Source of the DNA: a virus
IMG/VR virus record: IMGVR_UViG_3300032893_000122
Location: 1-42,164 of that record
Strand: one strand, 5' to 3'
DNA: 42,164 nucleotides
The notes under the pieces are model-generated. The model was not told the origin of the DNA. It was given only the letters and a program-made list of their open reading frames with translations, and ran no database searches. The first letter of the stretch is position 1; the number at the start of each line of letters is the position of its first letter. Of the stretch, positions 6,797 to 38,504 are shown in pieces. The translations under genes were made by a program, and so were the position numbers.

Positions 6797-8125
6797 ATGG
6801 CAATTGGTGTAGAATCAGCAGTCGAATCCGTTGAACTTGAAGCGTTTGCGACTGAAATCCCATCTCTCATTCCTATGTCCAAGACTTTTTATAGCTTGGC
6901 ACAGGACCGCTTCACTAAGGTTCCGGTTTCGTACCAGACCCTCGGTGGAGCGACTACTCGCCCCTCCTTCCGCGTTCCTTTCCGCGTGCAGGGTGGTGCG
7001 TACGTTTCCCAAGGTACAGGTGACGGTTCCCCTCTCGGTCGTGGTAACATGTCCGTTTGGCAGGACTTTGTACTAAGCCCAGTATGGCACTATGCAGTCA
7101 ATGAGCAGAGCCACTTGGCACAGCTTGCCGTCAATGGCAAGAAACGCGGCCTTATCTCCCTCAAGGCTGAGGAACTCAAGAATTCACTTGATTCCGCCAT
7201 GGCTGGTCTCGAAGGCATCATGTATGGTGACTCTTCGGGTGCCATCACTCAGATTCCTGTTGGTGCTACAGTAAGTTCCGGCTCCGGTACTGGCAACCAG
7301 ACTTCTTACATCCAAGGCGTCCGCGCCATGGCGTTCACTGACAATCAGGTTGTGCAGTTTTTCAACTCTGAGGGCGGCTCATCGCTTGGTACTGCAACCA
7401 TTTCGGTTAACTCTCCTGAAGTAAGCACGCTGTGGTTCTCTACCGTCCTTCCGGGCGGCGTTGGCGTCGGCACTTACATCATGATCGCCGGTAGCTCGGG
7501 TGCTCTTAACCAAGGTGTATTTGGTACTACGGCTTGGCAGAACTCTTCCACGTCCGGGACTATAGCTGGTGTCAACCGTGCAACTTTCCCAAACCGCGTT
7601 TCGACTCCTTCTATCGACCTTGCGGGTGGTTCGGTAACTGCATCGCTTTCTGCTCGTATCGAGGCTTTGCTTGGCCGTGCCATGGGTGCTGACAACAAGA
7701 CCAAGGACTCGGGCGTGTACCTCATGCCTGAGGATCAGACTTACGCGATTGCTCAGACAAACTACTACAACAAGCAGATTGTCATTCAGCAATCCACGTC
7801 TGAAGGCAACAAGGGCGAAGTGCCGGATGTATCCAAGAAATACTTCCAAGGTACTTATGGCGGACGTGAAGTCAACCTGTCCTATGTGCAGCCTCAAGGT
7901 CGTATTGACCTGCTCCTGACGGATAACTGGTATATTGGTGAACTTATTCCCCTCCAGCTTTACGATTTTGGTGGTGGACAGACGTTCATTTCGGTGCCGA
8001 ATAACAACTCGCCGGGTGGCTGGTTGACTTCTAACCAGTTCGCATACGAGACATCATTTAATTTAGCCGATAGTGCTCCTCGTCATGGCTTGTACGTATA
8101 CGGAGCTTCACAGCCCACAATCTAA
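6797..8125 (+). CDS. Major capsid protein
   Basis: This 442-aa protein starts MAIGVESAVESVELEAFA. The ATG at 6797 is preceded by GGAG at a 9-nt spacing; an in-frame start at 6740 would lie in the leader and cut through its hairpin. It has the length, position after scaffold, and low-complexity Ser/Gly/Thr strand-rich middle typical of HK97-fold capsid proteins of podophages. It includes an early FRVPFRVQGG region and a late Q-rich YAIAQTNYYNKQIV stretch that fits the P-domain/spine. The 309-bp leader and strong ribosome site suit a highly expressed gene. The fold is inferred from context rather than a motif. Confidence 0.8.
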   Translation: MAIGVESAVESVELEAFATEIPSLIPMSKTFYSLAQDRFTKVPVSYQTLGGATTRPSFRVPFRVQGGAYVSQGTGDGSPLGRGNMSVWQDFVLSPVWHYAVNEQSHLAQLAVNGKKRGLISLKAEELKNSLDSAMAGLEGIMYGDSSGAITQIPVGATVSSGSGTGNQTSYIQGVRAMAFTDNQVVQFFNSEGGSSLGTATISVNSPEVSTLWFSTVLPGGVGVGTYIMIAGSSGALNQGVFGTTAWQNSSTSGTIAGVNRATFPNRVSTPSIDLAGGSVTASLSARIEALLGRAMGADNKTKDSGVYLMPEDQTYAIAQTNYYNKQIVIQQSTSEGNKGEVPDVSKKYFQGTYGGREVNLSYVQPQGRIDLLLTDNWYIGELIPLQLYDFGGGQTFISVPNNNSPGGWLTSNQFAYETSFNLADSAPRHGLYVYGASQPTI

Positions 8126-12815: not shown

Positions 12816-13310
12816 ATGGCACATAATGCTGATTTTTACATTTACGAATATCTTCGTTCTCGTGCTTCTGAGCATGGTCCGGTTGGCTCTCCTTATTATG
12901 TGGGGAAGGGTCGTCATGGGCGTGCTTTTAATAAAGCCCATCGTGTGCGTCCTCCCAAAGATAAAGCTAACATCATTTTTGTGGCTAAAAATCTAGCCGA
13001 AGATGAGGCTTTTCAAATGGAAAAAGAATTGATTGCTTTTTATGGGAGAGTAGCTATAGGTACTGGGTGTTTACAGAATTTAACTGATGGAGGAGAGGGG
13101 CACGCTGGTCATTCCCCATCAGCGGAAACCAGAATTAAGCTTAGTAAAGCGGTGAGTCTAGCAAAAAGAGGCATAAAACAATCCCCGGAACATAGAGCAG
13201 CTTTATCCAAGGTTAGAAAGGGTTGTACCCCTTGGAATAAAGGAAAGAGTATTCCTTGGACTAAGAAGGCATACGAAGCACGCGGCTTGAGGTGTCCAAG
13301 TGAGTCATAA
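12816..13310 (+). CDS. GIY-YIG homing endonuclease, second subtype
   Basis: This 164-aa protein is a close relative of the one at 8222-8869. FYIYEYLRSRASEHGPVGSPYYVGKG carries the GIY-YIG core, AFQMEKELIAFYGR holds the likely catalytic Glu, and QNLTDGGEGHAGHS follows. It has fewer C-terminal NUMOD3-like modules (SAETRIKLSKAVSLAKRG, SPEHRAALSKVRKG) and ends with a basic NKGKSIPWTKKAYEARG. The stop overlaps the GTG start of the large tail gene. A ribosome site GAGGAA sits just downstream of the hairpin at 12758-12795. The lower GC content than neighbouring tail genes suits late acquisition. Confidence 0.88.
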   Translation: MAHNADFYIYEYLRSRASEHGPVGSPYYVGKGRHGRAFNKAHRVRPPKDKANIIFVAKNLAEDEAFQMEKELIAFYGRVAIGTGCLQNLTDGGEGHAGHSPSAETRIKLSKAVSLAKRGIKQSPEHRAALSKVRKGCTPWNKGKSIPWTKKAYEARGLRCPSES

Positions 13311-32995: not shown

Positions 32996-33707
32996 TTGAC
33001 TGACCGTGACGCGACCGCCAGACCAAACCACACCGACCAGAACATAACATGACTCAACTGGACTCGACTCGATTGCCTTGCCATACTGGACGTGACATAC
33101 CGAGACATGGCATAACGGGGCTCGACTGCCATGACCCGACAAGACTGACCGTACCGGGGCACACCGAACCCCGCCAAGACAAACCATGACCTACCGCGAC
33201 TGCCTTGACCTGACTTGACCCACCTGAACCCGACGCAACGCACCGCGACATAACTAGACGCGACAGCCATGACTAGACTCGACATGCCACGCCGTACCTA
33301 GTCTGCCTCGGCTGAACATACCGCGACTAAACGAGCCTTGACTCGACACAACAGGACAAACCCGGACGCGACTCGACTCGACTGCCAAGACTAGACCCAA
33401 CCTGACATACCGTGACCCGACTTGACTCACCGTAACTTACCGGAACATGACTGCCGTGACCCGACATAATATGACTTAACTGAACACACCGCGACTTAAC
33501 ACGACTCGACTGCCAAGCCGTGACTGAACATGGCGCGACGAAACATAACAAGCCTCGACTGCCTCGACTTGACCTGACAAACCTTGACACACCGCGACTC
33601 AACATGACAAGACGAGACACAACATGACGCGACTCGACTCAACGCGACTGCCTTATCGCGACTCAACGGAACAAGACCAGACTCGACCAGACTCACCGTG
33701 ACAAGAC
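32996..33707 (-). repeat. 712-bp pentamer array with TGCC punctuation
   Basis: Hand parsing divides this stretch without remainder into 132 pentamers and 13 tetramers. On the plus strand the units are NNRAC-like; all but two of the 132 end in C, about 95 have A at position 4, and the remainder are mostly NNACC or NNGCC. On the minus strand, along transcription of its neighbours, the unit is G-K-Y-N-N. Nine tetramers are TGCC and one AGCC. Punctuation marks start at 33071, 33124, 33198, 33262, 33301, 33380, 33449, 33508, 33557 and 33646; from 33124 on every interval is 5n+4. A 5-base period rules out coding. The array begins 28 bp from one gene and ends 4 bp from another. Confidence 0.9.
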
Positions 33708-33711
33708 TTTT

Positions 33712-34215
33712 CTATGCCGCTGCCCTTTTCGCCTTCGCTTTCAGTTTGGCTTGAAGCTGAAGCCGGAAATTCTGCGTGGCTGAAAGCAAAGAATTGTAAG
33801 CATCGCCGAGCCCGAGAGCGCAAGCATAACTTTTCGCACGGAGAATTTGATTCTCAATGCGCTTGAATTCCGCCATCAGAAAGTCAGTCTCTTTGCCTTC
33901 TTCCTTTAAGTCTTTCACTTCGACAAAGTGTGGAGCGCGGCGAGGAGCATCCGGGTGAACAACAAAGCGCGGCCTCAGGAACACGGTGTTTTCAACCGTC
34001 ACTGAAATCCGCACCGTTTTAATCAAGTGCTTTGCATGATCCAGCCAATGCCGTTCGGCGGCGGCGGCAAGGTCCCATTCAAATCCGCCCTGAGTGTGAA
34101 GGGCGCTGCGAGGATTCTTGGCTTCATCCACAACGATTTGTGGAGTCAGGAACCCATGCTTTTCTTTGAGTTTCAAGAGCACCTTTTCTACGACTTCGCG
34201 ATTCATCTTCTTCAT
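33712..34215 (-). CDS. Conserved phage protein, LTPQxVVxEA family
   Basis: This 167-aa protein starts MKKMNREVVEKVLLKLKEK with AGGAGA upstream. It has LTPQIVVDEAKNPRSALHTQ and GFEWDLAAAAERHWLDHAKH, the signature (VVeEA-p-SPLH-FeWDd-aA-xxR-xqAR-LI) of a family common in phages and often found beside the gene upstream here. Function is unknown; replication or recombination roles have been considered from neighbourhood only. The C-terminal part is basic (LQLQAKLKAKAKRAAA). The stop abuts the pentamer array. Confidence 0.7.
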   Translation of the reverse strand: MKKMNREVVEKVLLKLKEKHGFLTPQIVVDEAKNPRSALHTQGGFEWDLAAAAERHWLDHAKHLIKTVRISVTVENTVFLRPRFVVHPDAPRRAPHFVEVKDLKEEGKETDFLMAEFKRIENQILRAKSYACALGLGDAYNSLLSATQNFRLQLQAKLKAKAKRAAA

Positions 34216-34264
34216 ATTCTCTCCTGTGTTAGGGGATGGGGCTTTCACCCCACCCGGTTGTTGT

Positions 34265-35062
34265 TTACGCCGTAGCAGCAGATGCTTTCTCTGAACGGAA
34301 GTGGCGGCTACCCAGTTCCTGAGTATACCACGTTAGCATCTCTTCAGACTCTGCATCCCATGGTTGGGCTGCTTCCATAGCTGCGATCTGAGGTTCACGA
34401 CCGCCCTGTGCGGCGATGGTGTCCCACAGCTTTTCATCCTCGTCGCTGGAGAGGAGATGGAACTGACCGAATGTCAGCTTGCCTTTTTCCGGGCGACCAT
34501 CGCCACAGCCGACATAAAGACCAGCGGCCGATAAAAGATTGGCGATAGCCTGTGGGGTCAGAAAGGGACGAATGAAAGTGACATCAAACTCCGCCGCCCA
34601 GTTGGGAATAATGCAGCGAGTGCGAATGTCAGGCGTATGATTCATGTCGCTTGACCGAACCACAGCCATGTAAAGTGCAGGGATGCCAAAAATGCCAACG
34701 TGGCGTCCTTGCACGTAGCATAGCCGTCCGATCTGCGCCTTCTTTGTTCCCGGCAAATCCAAAGCCGCTGTCATCATCGCGCCCTTGAAAGCCGTCGCGT
34801 CGATCCCCAGCAGAGTCGGACCGTCAGGAAGCTGAGTGGCAGATGCACGGAACTCAGCCACCGGATCGTGCTTGAGGCTGGTCTGCTTCTGCGCGGCGTT
34901 CATCCGCCCGGTAGGCATCAGTAATTGATGCTTTGCTTTTTCGGACATCTTGTTCAGAATGATCGGCGAATCACCGAGCACCTTAATGTGGATACTTCCA
35001 GTTTGCACCGTTGCCACCTGAATTTCCGGTGACTCCACGGTCTTGCTCTTTTGTCCTGCCAT
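34265..35062 (-). CDS. Conserved phage protein, SPIILNKMSEKAK family
   Basis: This 265-aa protein starts at 35062 with AGGAGA upstream. Motifs include IKVLGDSPIILNKMSEKAKH (residues about 27-46), LLGIDATAFKGAMMTAALDL (about 85), EFDVTFIRPFLTPQAIANLL and the Gly-rich GLYVGCGDGRPEKGKLTFGQF (about 185-205). This pattern defines a family frequent in phages of Proteobacteria, Actinobacteria and others, lacking a proven role; the Gly-rich loop and pairing with the downstream gene suggest a nucleic-acid function. It is the second gene of the minus block. Confidence 0.75.
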   Translation of the reverse strand: MAGQKSKTVESPEIQVATVQTGSIHIKVLGDSPIILNKMSEKAKHQLLMPTGRMNAAQKQTSLKHDPVAEFRASATQLPDGPTLLGIDATAFKGAMMTAALDLPGTKKAQIGRLCYVQGRHVGIFGIPALYMAVVRSSDMNHTPDIRTRCIIPNWAAEFDVTFIRPFLTPQAIANLLSAAGLYVGCGDGRPEKGKLTFGQFHLLSSDEDEKLWDTIAAQGGREPQIAAMEAAQPWDAESEEMLTWYTQELGSRHFRSEKASAATA

Positions 35063-35367: not shown

Positions 35368-35505
35368 ACAGTATACACCCTCTCGTCTCAATTGTGACAG
35401 TATTATTTCGTAACTAAAGTAACCTCCTCAGGTAACCATCTCAGATTACCCATGTTTAATTTTAGAATACTAAATTTTGTAGTATTATAAATGAGGAGGA
35501 AAATT
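35368..35505. promoter_or_regulatory. Divergent control region with operator-like repeats
   Basis: This AT-rich gap separates divergent genes. It holds the minus-strand box GTGTATACTGT (35368-35378), three GTAAC direct repeats (35410, 35419, 35432), a GGTAA/TTACC dyad (35431-35450), two AGTATTAT copies (35398 and 35481), and the dyad AATACTA-n7-TAGTATT (35466-35486), which overlaps a -10-like TATTAT for the plus strand. A GAGGAGG ribosome site follows. It looks like a lysis/early control switch region bound by the adjacent HTH protein. Confidence 0.55.
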
Positions 35506-35700
35506 ATGCAAAGACCTGAGACCATCGCGGCACACAGGATCATCGCCGCGCACATCAAATCCCACCCCACTAAACCCTACGGCGAGGTCGCCGCCTTTTT
35601 CGGCGTCAGTCGCGCCACAGTCTCACTTGCCGCCAAGGAAGCCGGGATTCCCGACCATCGCCGTGTGTATGAACGAGTGATGGAGGCGGCTAGTGAGTGA
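35506..35700 (+). CDS. Small HTH DNA-binding protein
   Basis: This 64-aa protein has a helix-turn-helix: KPYGEVAAFFGVSRATVSLA (residues about 26-45), with AAKEAGIPDHRR after it. It begins at ATG 35506 with GAGGAGG upstream. It is the first gene of the rightward control block, next to an operator-like dyad, so it may autoregulate. Its stop overlaps the GTG of the next gene. Confidence 0.75.
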   Translation: MQRPETIAAHRIIAAHIKSHPTKPYGEVAAFFGVSRATVSLAAKEAGIPDHRRVYERVMEAASE

Positions 35701-36112
35701 GGTCGATATTCAAACGCCGGGACTCGCCAAGCTCTCCCTGCCTAAAGGCGGCGTGTTGATTTTTGACAAGAGCGACGTGCGCCTCATCCGTTCCATCCTT
35801 GAACATATCAGACCGAAGAGACGGCGCAAGATAGCCGATGGGGCTCTGGCTCGTAGCAGTGATCCCGACACCAGTTTTGCTGCTGCCAGTTCGGTCGATG
35901 CCGCCCGGTGGGAAAAGATCGTCAGGGACGCCATTGCAGCCTTGGGAACGGCCACGTCATGGGAAGTAGCCCAGCATCTCAGTGTTGACCAGTATGGCTC
36001 CATCAGTCCACGGTTCCAACCCCTGTACCAAAAAGGTCTCATCGAGCTTACCGGGGAGAAACGCCCCGGTCCGAACGGAAAAGCGATGCAGGTATGGCGT
36101 TGTGTTGTATAA
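35693..36112 (+). CDS. Winged-helix-like regulatory protein
   Basis: This 139-aa protein starts at a GTG in overlap with the upstream stop. The C-terminal half, KIVRDAIAALGTATSWEVAQ to YGSISPRFQPLYQKGLIELT, is a winged-helix pattern (recognition helix with SISPRFQPL, then wing GEKRPGPNGKAMQVWR). The SDPDTSFAAASSVDAARWEK linker is frequent in phage proteins of this type. A near-consensus -10 box (TATAAT, 36108-36113) overlaps its stop. A fragment of a paralogue occurs at 36748. Confidence 0.7.
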   Translation: MSEVDIQTPGLAKLSLPKGGVLIFDKSDVRLIRSILEHIRPKRRRKIADGALARSSDPDTSFAAASSVDAARWEKIVRDAIAALGTATSWEVAQHLSVDQYGSISPRFQPLYQKGLIELTGEKRPGPNGKAMQVWRCVV

Positions 36113-36133: not shown

Positions 36134-36838
36134 ATGTCCCGTAAAATCAACCCCGATTCTTTACCATGGTTTCCATTCTATGCGGCGGAGTGGAAATACT
36201 CCGCAACTGTCATGAAGATGACCCGTGCTGTATGCCTTCAGCACGAGTGCTGTACATGTTCTGTATGCCTTCAGCACGAGTGCTGTACATGTTCTGTATG
36301 CCTTCAGTACGAGTACAGCACATATTACTTTCCCGAGCTATTGAAATTCTCATTAACATTGGGAAAAAATGGGTCTCCCGCGCCTATAGATAAGATAAGA
36401 AGAAAAGAGATAAAAAGAGAAAATAACTACGTAGTAGCTAATTCTAACTCAACGGGAGAAAATGATCCTGAAAAAGCAGAGGAAAAGGACGAATCCCAAC
36501 CGGAGAGTGCTTGGGTTAAACTCCCCGCCCCGGCGTCTGATGAGATGGAATTTCTCGACGTACCCGACAGTCATCCGTTCAGCTTGGCTCGGTCTAAACA
36601 AGAGCCTGTTGAGGAGCCCGATCCTCTGGATGATCCCTCGCCCATCAAGCCTAAGATGGTTTATAAAGCCGGAGTCGGCATGGTTCCCGCCACCACTAAG
36701 TCCCAGTCTCCCCCCGGTAGAAAGCAAACCCGCCCCTGTTCTCACCGATGTCCATCAGCCCACGAATCAAACCTCTGCGCCAGAAGGGCCTATTGCAATG
36801 GAACGGGCAGAGACGCAAAGGGCAGAGCAACCGCCTGA
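36134..36838 (+). CDS. DUF1376-like protein disrupted by tandem repeats
   Basis: This 234-aa ORF starts MSRKINPDSLPWFPFYAAEW, which matches the N-terminus of the DUF1376-like protein at 37002 (INPQQLPWFAFNVQRW). After YSATVMKMT the family core is missing; instead come copies of an 11-residue Cys-rich repeat, VCLQHECCTCS, encoded by the 33-bp repeat. An acidic, Pro-rich tail follows. From about 36750 the frame overlaps a winged-helix fragment in another frame. It is probably a degraded gene, although the frame stays open. Confidence 0.55.
   Translation: MSRKINPDSLPWFPFYAAEWKYSATVMKMTRAVCLQHECCTCSVCLQHECCTCSVCLQYEYSTYYFPELLKFSLTLGKNGSPAPIDKIRRKEIKRENNYVVANSNSTGENDPEKAEEKDESQPESAWVKLPAPASDEMEFLDVPDSHPFSLARSKQEPVEEPDPLDDPSPIKPKMVYKAGVGMVPATTKSQSPPGRKQTRPCSHRCPSAHESNLCARRAYCNGTGRDAKGRATA
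36228..36316 (+). repeat. 33-bp tandem repeat, 2.7 copies
   Basis: Two identical 33-bp units (36228-36260, 36261-36293) and a diverged partial third (36294-36316) lie in tandem. Each unit contains the hairpin CAGCAC-GA-GTGCTG; in the third copy this dyad is altered. The length is a multiple of both 3 and 11, so it keeps frame and helical phase. It may be a protein-binding array or simple expansion. Confidence 0.85.
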
Positions 36839-36936
36839 TGCGTGTATGGGAGTGTGTTCCCGGTACAGAGCATCTTGACCCAGCCGAAGTGACGGCGTAT
36901 ATTGAGGTTGAGGACGTCAAGTTGAGGCTGGTTTAG
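36748..36936 (+). pseudogene. Winged-helix fragment (paralogue of 35693 gene)
   Basis: The 62-aa frame reads SISPRIKPLRQKGLLQWNGQ and then RLMRVWECV, closely matching the C-terminal winged helix of the 35693 protein (SISPRFQPLYQKGLIELTGE; AMQVWRCVV). The N-terminal two thirds are missing. An extra tail, EVEDVKLRLV, is encoded by the start of a pentamer array. It is followed by a second DUF1376-like gene, so the two-gene cassette seems duplicated and eroded. Confidence 0.65.
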
Positions 36937-36981
36937 TCTCGTTAGGTCAAGTTATGTCACGGTGTGGTTCAGTTCGGTCAA
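36916..36981 (+). repeat. Small pentamer array (GTYNN grammar)
   Basis: Thirteen successive pentamers, interrupted by one extra base at 36966, begin with G and mostly follow G-T-C/T-N-N (such as GTCTC, GTTAG, GTCAA, GTTAT, GTCAC) or G-G-C/T (GGCTG, GGTGT). This is the grammar of the large array read on its minus strand, here on the plus strand. It runs from the 3' end of a coding frame to 20 bp before the next gene. Confidence 0.65.
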
Positions 36982-37001: not shown

Positions 37002-37397
37002 ATGGACAAACCAGCAAAGATTAACCCGCAACAGCTACCGTGGTTTGCGTTTAATGTACAGCGGTGGCTTTATTCTGGTGACCGGCTCTCAATGACTGCA
37101 ACTCAGCAGGGGGTTTACATTGAGATTATGGTTGCTATGTGGTTGGCAGGTTCATTGCCGACCGATCATATTAAACTGGCGAAAGTGCTCCATGGCTGTG
37201 ACCCAAGGATAGTAAAAAAGTGGTTGGATCAGTACGCCCATCTTATCGCCATCCTTGACACGCCCTGCACCAAGCATGTGTTCACCACCGATCTCAATTG
37301 CCCAAAATGCAAGGAAGCATTCGAGACTCCACGGGCACAGTTTGTGATCCCGAAGATGGCGGAAATCACCGAGTACACGCCGGAGGAGGGGGCATAA
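37002..37397 (+). CDS. DUF1376-like protein
   Basis: This 131-aa protein has a GGAGGAG ribosome site and the start INPQQLPWFAFNVQRWLYSG followed by SMTATQQGVYIEIMVAMWLAG and SLPTDHIKLAKVLHGCDPRIVKKWL. That is the DUF1376 N-terminal pattern (PWFpfy..dWl.dp.v..lt.ee.GaYi.LL...W..gslP.d...la.il), a winged-helix-like domain of phage replication/regulation proteins. It includes a possible zinc knuckle CPKC. It is shorter than the family's usual length. Confidence 0.75.
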   Translation: MDKPAKINPQQLPWFAFNVQRWLYSGDRLSMTATQQGVYIEIMVAMWLAGSLPTDHIKLAKVLHGCDPRIVKKWLDQYAHLIAILDTPCTKHVFTTDLNCPKCKEAFETPRAQFVIPKMAEITEYTPEEGA

Positions 37398-37412
37398 ATT
37401 CTCTGGAGTTTT

Positions 37413-37513
37413 CGCATCCAAATCGCATCCAAATCTCTCTGACCATGCTCTGACCATGCTCTGACCATGCTCTGACCATGCTCTGACCATGCTCTGACCA
37501 TGCTCTGACCATG
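37413..37513 (+). repeat. Nine 11-bp iterons
   Basis: Two copies of CGCATCCAAAT (37413-37434) are followed, after 2 bp, by seven perfect copies of CTCTGACCATG (37437-37513). An 11-bp period places every copy on nearly the same face of DNA. Next comes an A-rich run. Such iterons are typical of replication origins, partition sites or multi-operator arrays. Minus-strand frames through them are by-products of the repeat. Confidence 0.9.
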
Positions 37514-37561
37514 CAAAAAAATGCCCCTTAAGTCGTTTAGAATCAACACGGAATTTTACAC

Positions 37562-37601
37562 ATGACATGACATGATATGATATAACAGTACATGACATGT
37601 T
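37562..37601. repeat. Short ATGAC-type pentamer array
   Basis: Eight pentamers in strict phase (ATGAC, ATGAC, ATGAT, ATGAT, ATAAC, AGTAC, ATGAC, ATGTT) follow the same NNRAY layout as the large array's plus strand. It lies between the iterons and the bidirectional terminator. The rest of the 37398-37770 gap shows no gene; a weak TTGTAG-n17-TTTTAA promoter-like pair occurs after the array. Confidence 0.65.
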
Positions 37602-37690
37602 GTAGCGGCAGCTTCAATCAAGTTTTAAACGGGAGAGATTTTCAACTACCGAGTTCATTAGTATTGGGGACTCATCCTCGGCTTCACCAT

Positions 37691-37736
37691 AAAAAGAACC
37701 CACGATCCTGAATCTCAGGGCCGTGGGTTCTTTTTT
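37691..37736 (+). terminator. Strong bidirectional intrinsic terminator
   Basis: A perfect 14-bp stem, AAAAAGAACCCACG (37691-37704) with CGTGGGTTCTTTTT, encloses a smaller stem CCTG-AATCT-CAGG. T6 follows on the right and A5 stands on the left, so termination can occur in both directions. It isolates the control block from the late block that starts at 37771. Confidence 0.9.
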
Positions 37737-37770: not shown

Positions 37771-38010
37771 ATGCTGCTGAAGTTGAAAAATGCAATCGAA
37801 GGCACATATCTGCCGCCCGGTGTGCAGATTATATACATGCTTGGACGACCGATGGTGACGGAAAAGATCGGAGCCACCGAGTCTTATGTGATGCTTGAGC
37901 TTCATATCTTCCCGCCTGAGCTTGTAGACCCGCTGGAGTATGCCTTCGAGATGGACAAAGCTCTGGCGGAGTTAGCTAAAGTAAGGGCGGCTTTGAATAC
38001 ACAGATATGA
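37771..38010 (+). CDS. Hypothetical protein before small terminase
   Basis: This 79-aa protein begins MLLKLKNAIEGTYLPPGVQI, with a GGGGGAGAGA ribosome site right behind the terminator; the longer frame from 37723 would start inside the terminator hairpin. It is a small alpha/beta protein with acidic C-terminal helix (YAFEMDKALAELAKVRAAL). It overlaps the terminase start by 4 bp. No family is recognised. Confidence 0.65.
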   Translation: MLLKLKNAIEGTYLPPGVQIIYMLGRPMVTEKIGATESYVMLELHIFPPELVDPLEYAFEMDKALAELAKVRAALNTQI

Positions 38011-38504
38011 GAGCGAAACAAAAACTATTTCTGGCTGAATACCTTAAAGACTTGGACGGACCCCGAGCGGCGATTGCTGCCGGTTACTCGGCTAAGTCCG
38101 CCGAGTCCTATGCTTGTCAGCTTTTAGCCAAACCCGAAATCGCTAAGATACTCGCCGATAAAGCTAAAAAGAAACTCGAAAAGGCTGAAATAAGTTCCGA
38201 TTGGGTGCTAAGCAAACTAAAGTTACTAGCCGAATACGATCCACGCCGTTTGTTCGATGCCAACGGGAATCCCATTCCCGTTCAACAACTCGATGAATCT
38301 ACCGCTCAAGCTATAACCGGGATTGAAACCACAGCTAAGGGTGGGCTCAAATATAGGACGAGCGACCGCATCAAGGCGCTTGAACTTCTTGGTAAATACT
38401 TCAAATTGTTTACCGACCAAGTGGAGCTAAGCCAAAAGGAACCGCTTAAGGTTGTTGTACGCCATATCGCATGGAAGAAGGATAAGGATGCCGCAAGCGA
38501 GTAA
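38007..38504 (+). CDS. terS: Terminase small subunit
   Basis: This 165-aa protein has the Terminase_2 pattern: KQKLFLAEYLKDLDGPRAAI (helix), AAGYSAKSAESYACQLLAKP (DNA-binding HTH region) and EIAKILADKAKKKLEKAEIS. The C-terminal half, WVLSKLKLLAEYDPRRLFDA and later IKALELLGKYFKLF, is standard for this family. It binds phage DNA at packaging initiation with the large subunit gene about 1.3 kb on. Length is normal. Confidence 0.88.
   Translation: MRAKQKLFLAEYLKDLDGPRAAIAAGYSAKSAESYACQLLAKPEIAKILADKAKKKLEKAEISSDWVLSKLKLLAEYDPRRLFDANGNPIPVQQLDESTAQAITGIETTAKGGLKYRTSDRIKALELLGKYFKLFTDQVELSQKEPLKVVVRHIAWKKDKDAASE

Follow-up and report, generated by a model that had tools for sequence, protein, structure and literature searches.

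We examined an array of nine tandem 11-bp direct repeats in a soil phage genome obtained from environmental DNA, IMG/VR record IMGVR_UViG_3300032893_000122, whose whole 42,164-nucleotide sequence is referred to here as the window. Our best single reading, which we hold tentatively, is that the array is a set of helically phased direct-repeat protein-binding sites (putative iterons) of the phage replication region. Almost equally probable is that slippage made the array and that it has no function. The support for an origin is circumstantial: the array has a DUF1376-like neighbour, the sole DnaA-box-like site of the genome, an AT-rich patch, and a GC-skew minimum near it. A preliminary description had proposed a candidate origin or a partition site. 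The origin proposal keeps its place on this circumstantial support, although the array is unconserved beyond one near-identical record; the partition proposal does not, because no ParA/AAA_31 or ParB family was found in the genome.

The repeat array and its surroundings

Two repeat types, both on the plus strand and both with 100% match, were found by Tandem Repeats Finder (TRF). The first consists of two direct TCGCATCCAAA units at 37412–37433 (×2.2 at 37412–37435 as reported by TRF). The second consists of seven identical CTCTGACCATG units with a period of 11 bp at 37437–37513 (×7.1 at 37437–37514, with a score of 156, the second highest in the window). An exact-copy search placed the CTCTGACCATG units at 37437, 37448, 37459, 37470, 37481, 37492, and 37503 and none elsewhere in the window. 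The count of nine 11-bp units given earlier, two of one type and seven identical ones of another, was thus confirmed. Read from 37415, the nine units keep one unbroken 11-bp register, with CATCCAAATCG and CATCCAAATCT followed by the seven copies of CTCTGACCATG. The two unit types are dissimilar, since 738 of 1000 shuffles reached an equal score. Seven exact copies are not explicable as chance among point mutations; slippage could produce them. No further copy of TCGCATCCAAA with one mismatch was present in the window. When up to two mismatches were allowed, CTCTGACCATG had 17 matches in the window vs. 12.7 expected, and we conclude that this unit is not dispersed.

The array is non-coding. The upstream gene (37002–37397) stops 14 bp short of it, and no further plausible gene begins until 37771, which leaves a 373-bp gap between the DUF1376-like gene and the packaging genes. 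An A7 run (37515–37521, plus strand) lies immediately 3' of the array, so that the non-coding gap and the A-rich run described previously both held up. Two minus-strand open reading frames (ORFs), 37152–37598 and 37229–37549, run across the array; the first, of 148 amino acids, reads (HGQSMVRAWSE)n over it. All that keeps these frames open is the lack of a minus-strand stop codon in the 11-mer. Direct repeats of one helical period within non-coding DNA are a feature of iteron-type origins, as is an adjacent AT-rich opening region, for which the patch at 37526–37604 is the candidate. This patch contains short ACATG repeats (ACATG ×8 by TRF), and reaches a maximum of 0.70 AT over 60 bp; the genome has 10 patches of this kind in all.

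Two further signs of an origin were found. The site TTTTACACA (37554–37562, plus strand) stands 40 bp from the array and is the sole match to TTWTNCACA, which we take to be a relaxed DnaA box pattern, in the 42,022-bp circle. The chance of a match within 150 bp on either side of the array is about 1%; in 26 other DUF1376 loci the density of the pattern is 8 per 252 kb, with two of the eight forming one redundant pair. The second sign comes from GC skew, named earlier as a check for an origin at the array: the detrended cumulative skew has its minimum at 36,782, 0.6 kb from the array, with a range of 356 vs. a 95% shuffle limit of 281, but there is a second minimum and changes of gene strand confound the curve.

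The gene that ends just before the array (37002–37397, plus strand) encodes a DUF1376-like, primosomal-protein-like product of 131 amino acids. It matched Pfam DUF1376 (PF07120) with an E-value of 6.9e-5 and 23.6 bits (23.9 in a second search) and the primosomal family PHROG 3992 with an E-value of 8e-6. The earlier statement that the genome has no visible replication genes was therefore inaccurate. For the context of DUF1376, 26 other loci were fetched, and 21 of their records and the window were searched for DnaA_C and DnaB_C. DnaA_C was present in 9 and DnaB_C in 4 of the 21 records, and in 10 of the 21 one or the other lay, by coordinates, within ~2.1 kb of the DUF1376 gene; the ninth DnaA_C match (record G048), at 43 kb from the DUF1376 gene, was excluded from this last count. 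The gene right after the DUF1376 gene was DnaB-like in locus L028 and DnaA-C in Rhizobium phage RHph_TM3_3_3. This proximity indicates that the family marks replication modules. Among the titles of papers on DUF1376 with replication, judged as titles, none concerned DUF1376 function. Family searches of the window gave no match to DnaA_C, DnaB_C, Rep3_N, ParB_N, AAA_31, or phage integrase.

Upstream of the DUF1376-like gene is a probable winged-helix-type gene (35693–36112, plus strand) belonging to PHROG 1123, a family with no assigned function; the term winged-helix is our own reading, with no family match behind it. The following ORF (36134–36838, plus strand) has a DUF1376-type N-terminus in its first 30 codons (52% identity over 27 amino acids to the 37002 product) and no Pfam or PHROG match of its own. 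It is interrupted by a 33-bp repeat in 2.6 copies (36228–36314, plus strand; TRF), copies 1 and 2 of which contain a CAGCAC-GA-GTGCTG dyad with six-base arms. The stretch 3' of these repeats (36380–36469, plus strand) is the genome's only place so AT-rich and purine-asymmetric. A small ORF (36748–36936) repeats the C-terminus of the 35693 gene (53% identity over 36 amino acids). From these two similarities we conclude that a segment running from the end of the winged-helix gene to the start of the DUF1376 gene was duplicated. Each copy leads into a tandem array, of period 33 or 11, and then into AT-rich DNA. No other feature of the layout hints as strongly as this parallel that the array belongs to a replication unit. 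Kinship of the 11-bp unit with the 33-bp repeat was unsupported, as 131 of 1000 shuffles were equally good.

Distally, at 37691–37736, runs of A and T border a strong hairpin, which gave −30.4 kcal/mol (z −6.2) on the plus strand and −31.6 kcal/mol (z −5.6) on the minus strand and also appeared in the consensus scan; it is probably a bidirectional intrinsic terminator. The order 3' of the hairpin is a small gene (~37771), the small terminase gene terS (38007–38504, plus strand; Pfam Terminase_2, E 2.9e-30), which begins 493 bp past the array, and terL (39828).

The record ends overlap by 142 bp with one mismatch, and a second record, IMGVR_UViG_3300032897_000177, reads through the end junction; the genome is therefore a complete circle of ~42,022 bp. 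This second record is the only other one in IMG/VR that has the array. It is near-identical to the window, contains seven copies likewise, and shows no difference over the compared region; the two may be from the same population. The proposed check of copy number in related phages thus returned the same seven copies, but from this single record. A 22-mer of the array was absent from GTDB genomes, and the non-coding gap had no blastn match in phages and plasmids. Relatives therefore give no record of how old the array is or how its copy number has changed. No host was found; TerL had no relative in GTDB genomes.

Explanations for the array

We infer that the array is bound by protein and that the origin lies here rather than at 36.2–36.45 kb. 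In the proposed mechanism cooperative binding would fill the nine units along one face of the DNA; the bound protein would most likely be a product of the neighboring winged-helix/DUF1376 group. Strain from the loaded array would help to open the AT-rich patch just to its right, and host DnaA might bind TTTTACACA. The next step would be recruitment of helicase and polymerase from the host, which is proposed because the DnaA-C and DnaB-C families are absent from the window. In an elaboration that we consider unlikely, there would be two duplicated initiation units, each made of a winged-helix/DUF1376 gene with its own phased array (period 33, which is 3 × 11, or period 11) and its own AT-rich patch. 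The short DUF1376 protein would be the iteron-binding initiator, and two diverging origins would use host DnaA and helicase.

Several observations weigh against the iteron reading. The perfect identity of the seven copies is as much in keeping with recent slippage as with selection, and the array is not conserved outside this phage lineage in IMG/VR, GTDB, phages, or plasmids. It is also not a general DUF1376 feature, since no comparable array was found near DUF1376 in the 26 other loci; the one repeat of at least four copies around DUF1376 in those loci was a 39-bp repeat, of unchecked coding status, 1.4 kb away in L200. The DUF1376 match of the 37002 product is under the gathering threshold (23.6 vs. 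30.1 bits), and the single-sequence fold of this protein is unreliable (predicted local distance difference test, pLDDT, 52) and too poor for a structure search. The skew curve has not only a second minimum but also a second maximum, and the strongest AT-rich patch lies elsewhere, at 35415–35527. The coincidences of DnaA box, AT content, and skew are post hoc and non-independent, being linked through non-coding DNA and gene strand. In the lambda-type origin layout, iterons lie inside a replication gene beside AT-rich DNA. The 33-bp repeats and the purine-rich AT stretch at 36.23–36.47 kb fit that layout better than the array does, and they are about as near to the skew minimum (0.3–0.55 kb). 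Finally, the parallel between the two copies of the duplicated segment cuts both ways, for nothing else hints as strongly that the region is simply prone to duplication.

The last point leads to the rival that survives best, namely that the array is a recent minisatellite without function, the product of replication slippage or recombination that multiplied an 11-bp unit where a non-coding gap tolerated it. We regard this as a serious, if doubtful, possibility. The complete identity of the seven copies and the restriction of the array to this lineage favor it, as do the other tandem duplications within the surrounding 2 kb (the 33-bp ×2.6 repeat, the winged-helix-turn-helix/DUF1376 segment, and ACATG ×8) and the lack of a similar array in all 26 other DUF1376 loci. 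Against it, such arrays are rare: 157 other phage loci (1.36 Mb) contained four arrays with a period of 7–25 bp, at least four copies, and at least 90% match, and none had seven perfect copies. In addition, two unrelated unit types share a common 11-bp register, and copy number is equal in the one other record, though that record is possibly of the same population. One of the four arrays is in locus L178 of an unrelated phage, where two neighboring direct-repeat families, AGTTGTCCAA and TTGCAATAAAC, occupy 1284–1400 within a non-coding gap.

The array stops 493 bp short of the small terminase gene and could instead be a pac or cosB-like site at which the small terminase binds repeats ahead of its own gene and packaging starts. 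A distant relative, L064 (TerL 31% identity), offers a parallel in a non-coding 10-bp ×8.9 array ~585 bp before TerS, with one small gene between. This explanation is improbable, however. The L064 unit and its intervening gene differ from those of the window, and in the window a terminator hairpin and a gene separate the array from terS. Of 78 other TerL loci, 49 had at least 1.5 kb before terL, and a non-coding upstream array was present in only two of these, L064 (10 bp × 8.9) and L011 (6 bp × 14.8), which rules out the array as a feature of the TerL clade; arrays starting at a contig end (L019, L031) were left out of this judgement. Most arrays upstream of TerL in relatives were codon repeats (L028, L029). 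Moreover, an exact parS-like palindrome after the L064 array points there to partition.

The two relatives have features of their own. In L064 the array at 541–668 is followed by a 26-bp palindrome that contains the parS consensus TGTTTCACGTGAAACA exactly, ~0.6 kb before terS; the same 16-mer is found in L068 at 4320, just after terL. In L011 the array (7902–7990, GCGACC ×14.8) stands just upstream of a small gene on the minus strand, the product of which is ribbon-helix-helix-like by eye.

Repressor or activator sites that control transcription across the early/late junction are a further explanation, and quite an unlikely one. The array does lie between an early-type operon and the late genes, ahead of a strong terminator through which late transcription would have to read, and a small helix-turn-helix (HTH)-like gene at 35491 in the same cluster has weak Pfam HTH matches. 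However, no sigma-70-like promoter was scored between 37398 and 37770, and other promoters in the genome do not carry the unit. A dispersed operator was ruled out by the lack of any exact unit outside the array and by the 17 near-matches vs. 12.7 expected.

It is very unlikely that the array acts in a transcript, either as an imperfect hairpin or as start–stop reinitiation units (AUG-CUC-UGA). Consecutive units do contain ATGCTCTGA, and on the minus strand the fold is more stable than in shuffled sequences (−39.6 kcal/mol, z −3.1), but tandem units containing CATG fold for that reason alone. The plus strand, which is the direction of the neighboring genes, is unremarkable (z −1.4); a ribosome-binding site was not seen; and Rfam gave no match for the array. 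A role in partition, as a centromere of parC/ParR or parS type, is just as hard to credit. The absence of any integrase family in the window leaves room for it in the form of a plasmid-like prophage, but family searches with positive controls found neither ParA/AAA_31 nor ParB_N in the window, a search for StbA (actin-type ParM) found no match there with its controls also silent, and no lysogeny gene was identified.

A VIPR system and other features

The window carries a VIPR system on the minus strand at 33000–35062. Such systems were reported in a 2026 preprint (PMC13142463). The system is identified by a Vipr RAMP protein together with vrRNAs, predicted from sequence, of GGY/NN pentamers or a related consensus. 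The Vipr-like RAMP gene (34265–35062) matched PDB 36pp_D, "SUSP1 Vipr protein," with an E-value of 1.2e-9 when a profile (A2) was used and 0.07 when the single sequence was used. Its AlphaFold model had a pLDDT of 86.6, and all 50 of the 50 best Foldseek rows were CRISPR Csm/Cmr/Cas7-type, with query template modeling (TM) scores of 0.29–0.43. The second gene (33712–34218), a vap candidate, aligns with its positional counterpart, the second gene, in five other loci. The vrRNA-like guide tract (33000–33708) is built of 5-bp units, with a lag-5 match of 0.486 and GTY/GGY-NN pentamers in runs of ~9–17, many parted by a GGCA junction. A tract of this type was found beside Vipr relatives in all six loci examined first (L091, L093, and L095–L098) and in 72 of 79 other IMG/VR Vipr loci, vs. 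3 of 78 TerL and 2 of 26 DUF1376 control loci.

Guides were decoded by the 1-nt-skip rule published in that preprint (PMC13142463). The best match in the window, guide a2 at 7847, was 15/18 vs. a control maximum of 15. As decoded guides had no window target above permuted guides, the array was rejected as part of the VIPR system. Among 165 other loci there was no clear target either: guide b matched 16/20 vs. 15 with a skip of 1, and guide a7 matched 16/18 vs. 14 with a skip of 2, differences that are not meaningful with five permutations each. Separate from the Vipr locus, a stand-alone vrRNA-like tract of ~13 pentamers (36914–36980, plus strand) is situated between the two DUF1376-type ORFs and flanks the array on one side. 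A minus-strand tract that flanks the array on the other side (37560–37600) resembles vrRNA, but its complexity is too low to count.

A GIY-YIG-type homing endonuclease gene is located at 18–596, at the junction of the record ends, and a second homing-endonuclease-like ORF at 12816–13310.

Discussion

The array resembles several known elements, each incompletely. The putative origin of Francisella phage KIRK is described as a set of four iterons inside gene fhv_0043, where the DNA is AT-rich (PMC7924643). Like an origin of this lambda type, the array has tandem iteron-like units beside AT-rich DNA by a replication gene; unlike it, the array follows the gene and does not lie inside it, and the better fit to the layout is the 33-bp repeat at 36.2 kb. 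The rolling-circle origin of plasmid pGL2 is given as containing four tandem 11-bp direct repeats (PMC3387028). The bind locus of pGL2 and pMV158-type origins is like the array in its tandem 11-bp direct repeats, which in those plasmids lie at the origin; the window has nine units of two types. Neither a nick site nor a RepB-type initiator was seen in the window, though no specific search was made. In parC of plasmid R1 (ParMRC), direct repeats of ~11 bp in non-coding DNA are described in two sets of five (PMC4949242). The array has the repeat length and the non-coding position of parC so described, but it forms one cluster and a ParM/ParR partner was not identified. Among the loci compared, the TerL relative L064 is similar in that a short-period non-coding array precedes its terS by ~0.6 kb; it differs in its 10-bp unit of unrelated sequence and in the neighboring TGTTTCACGTGAAACA palindrome, which is absent from the window. 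L178 likewise has two adjoining 10–11-bp direct-repeat families in a non-coding gap; the phage and the sequences are unrelated, and the neighboring gene there is XRE-like by eye.

If the array arose by slippage, it is ordinary. The VIPR system matters separately, for its guide array is directly readable in this genome. If the DUF1376 protein does bind the array, this would provide a DNA target for a common phage family that has no assigned function, and the array would become a test site for the start of replication in phages without their own helicase.
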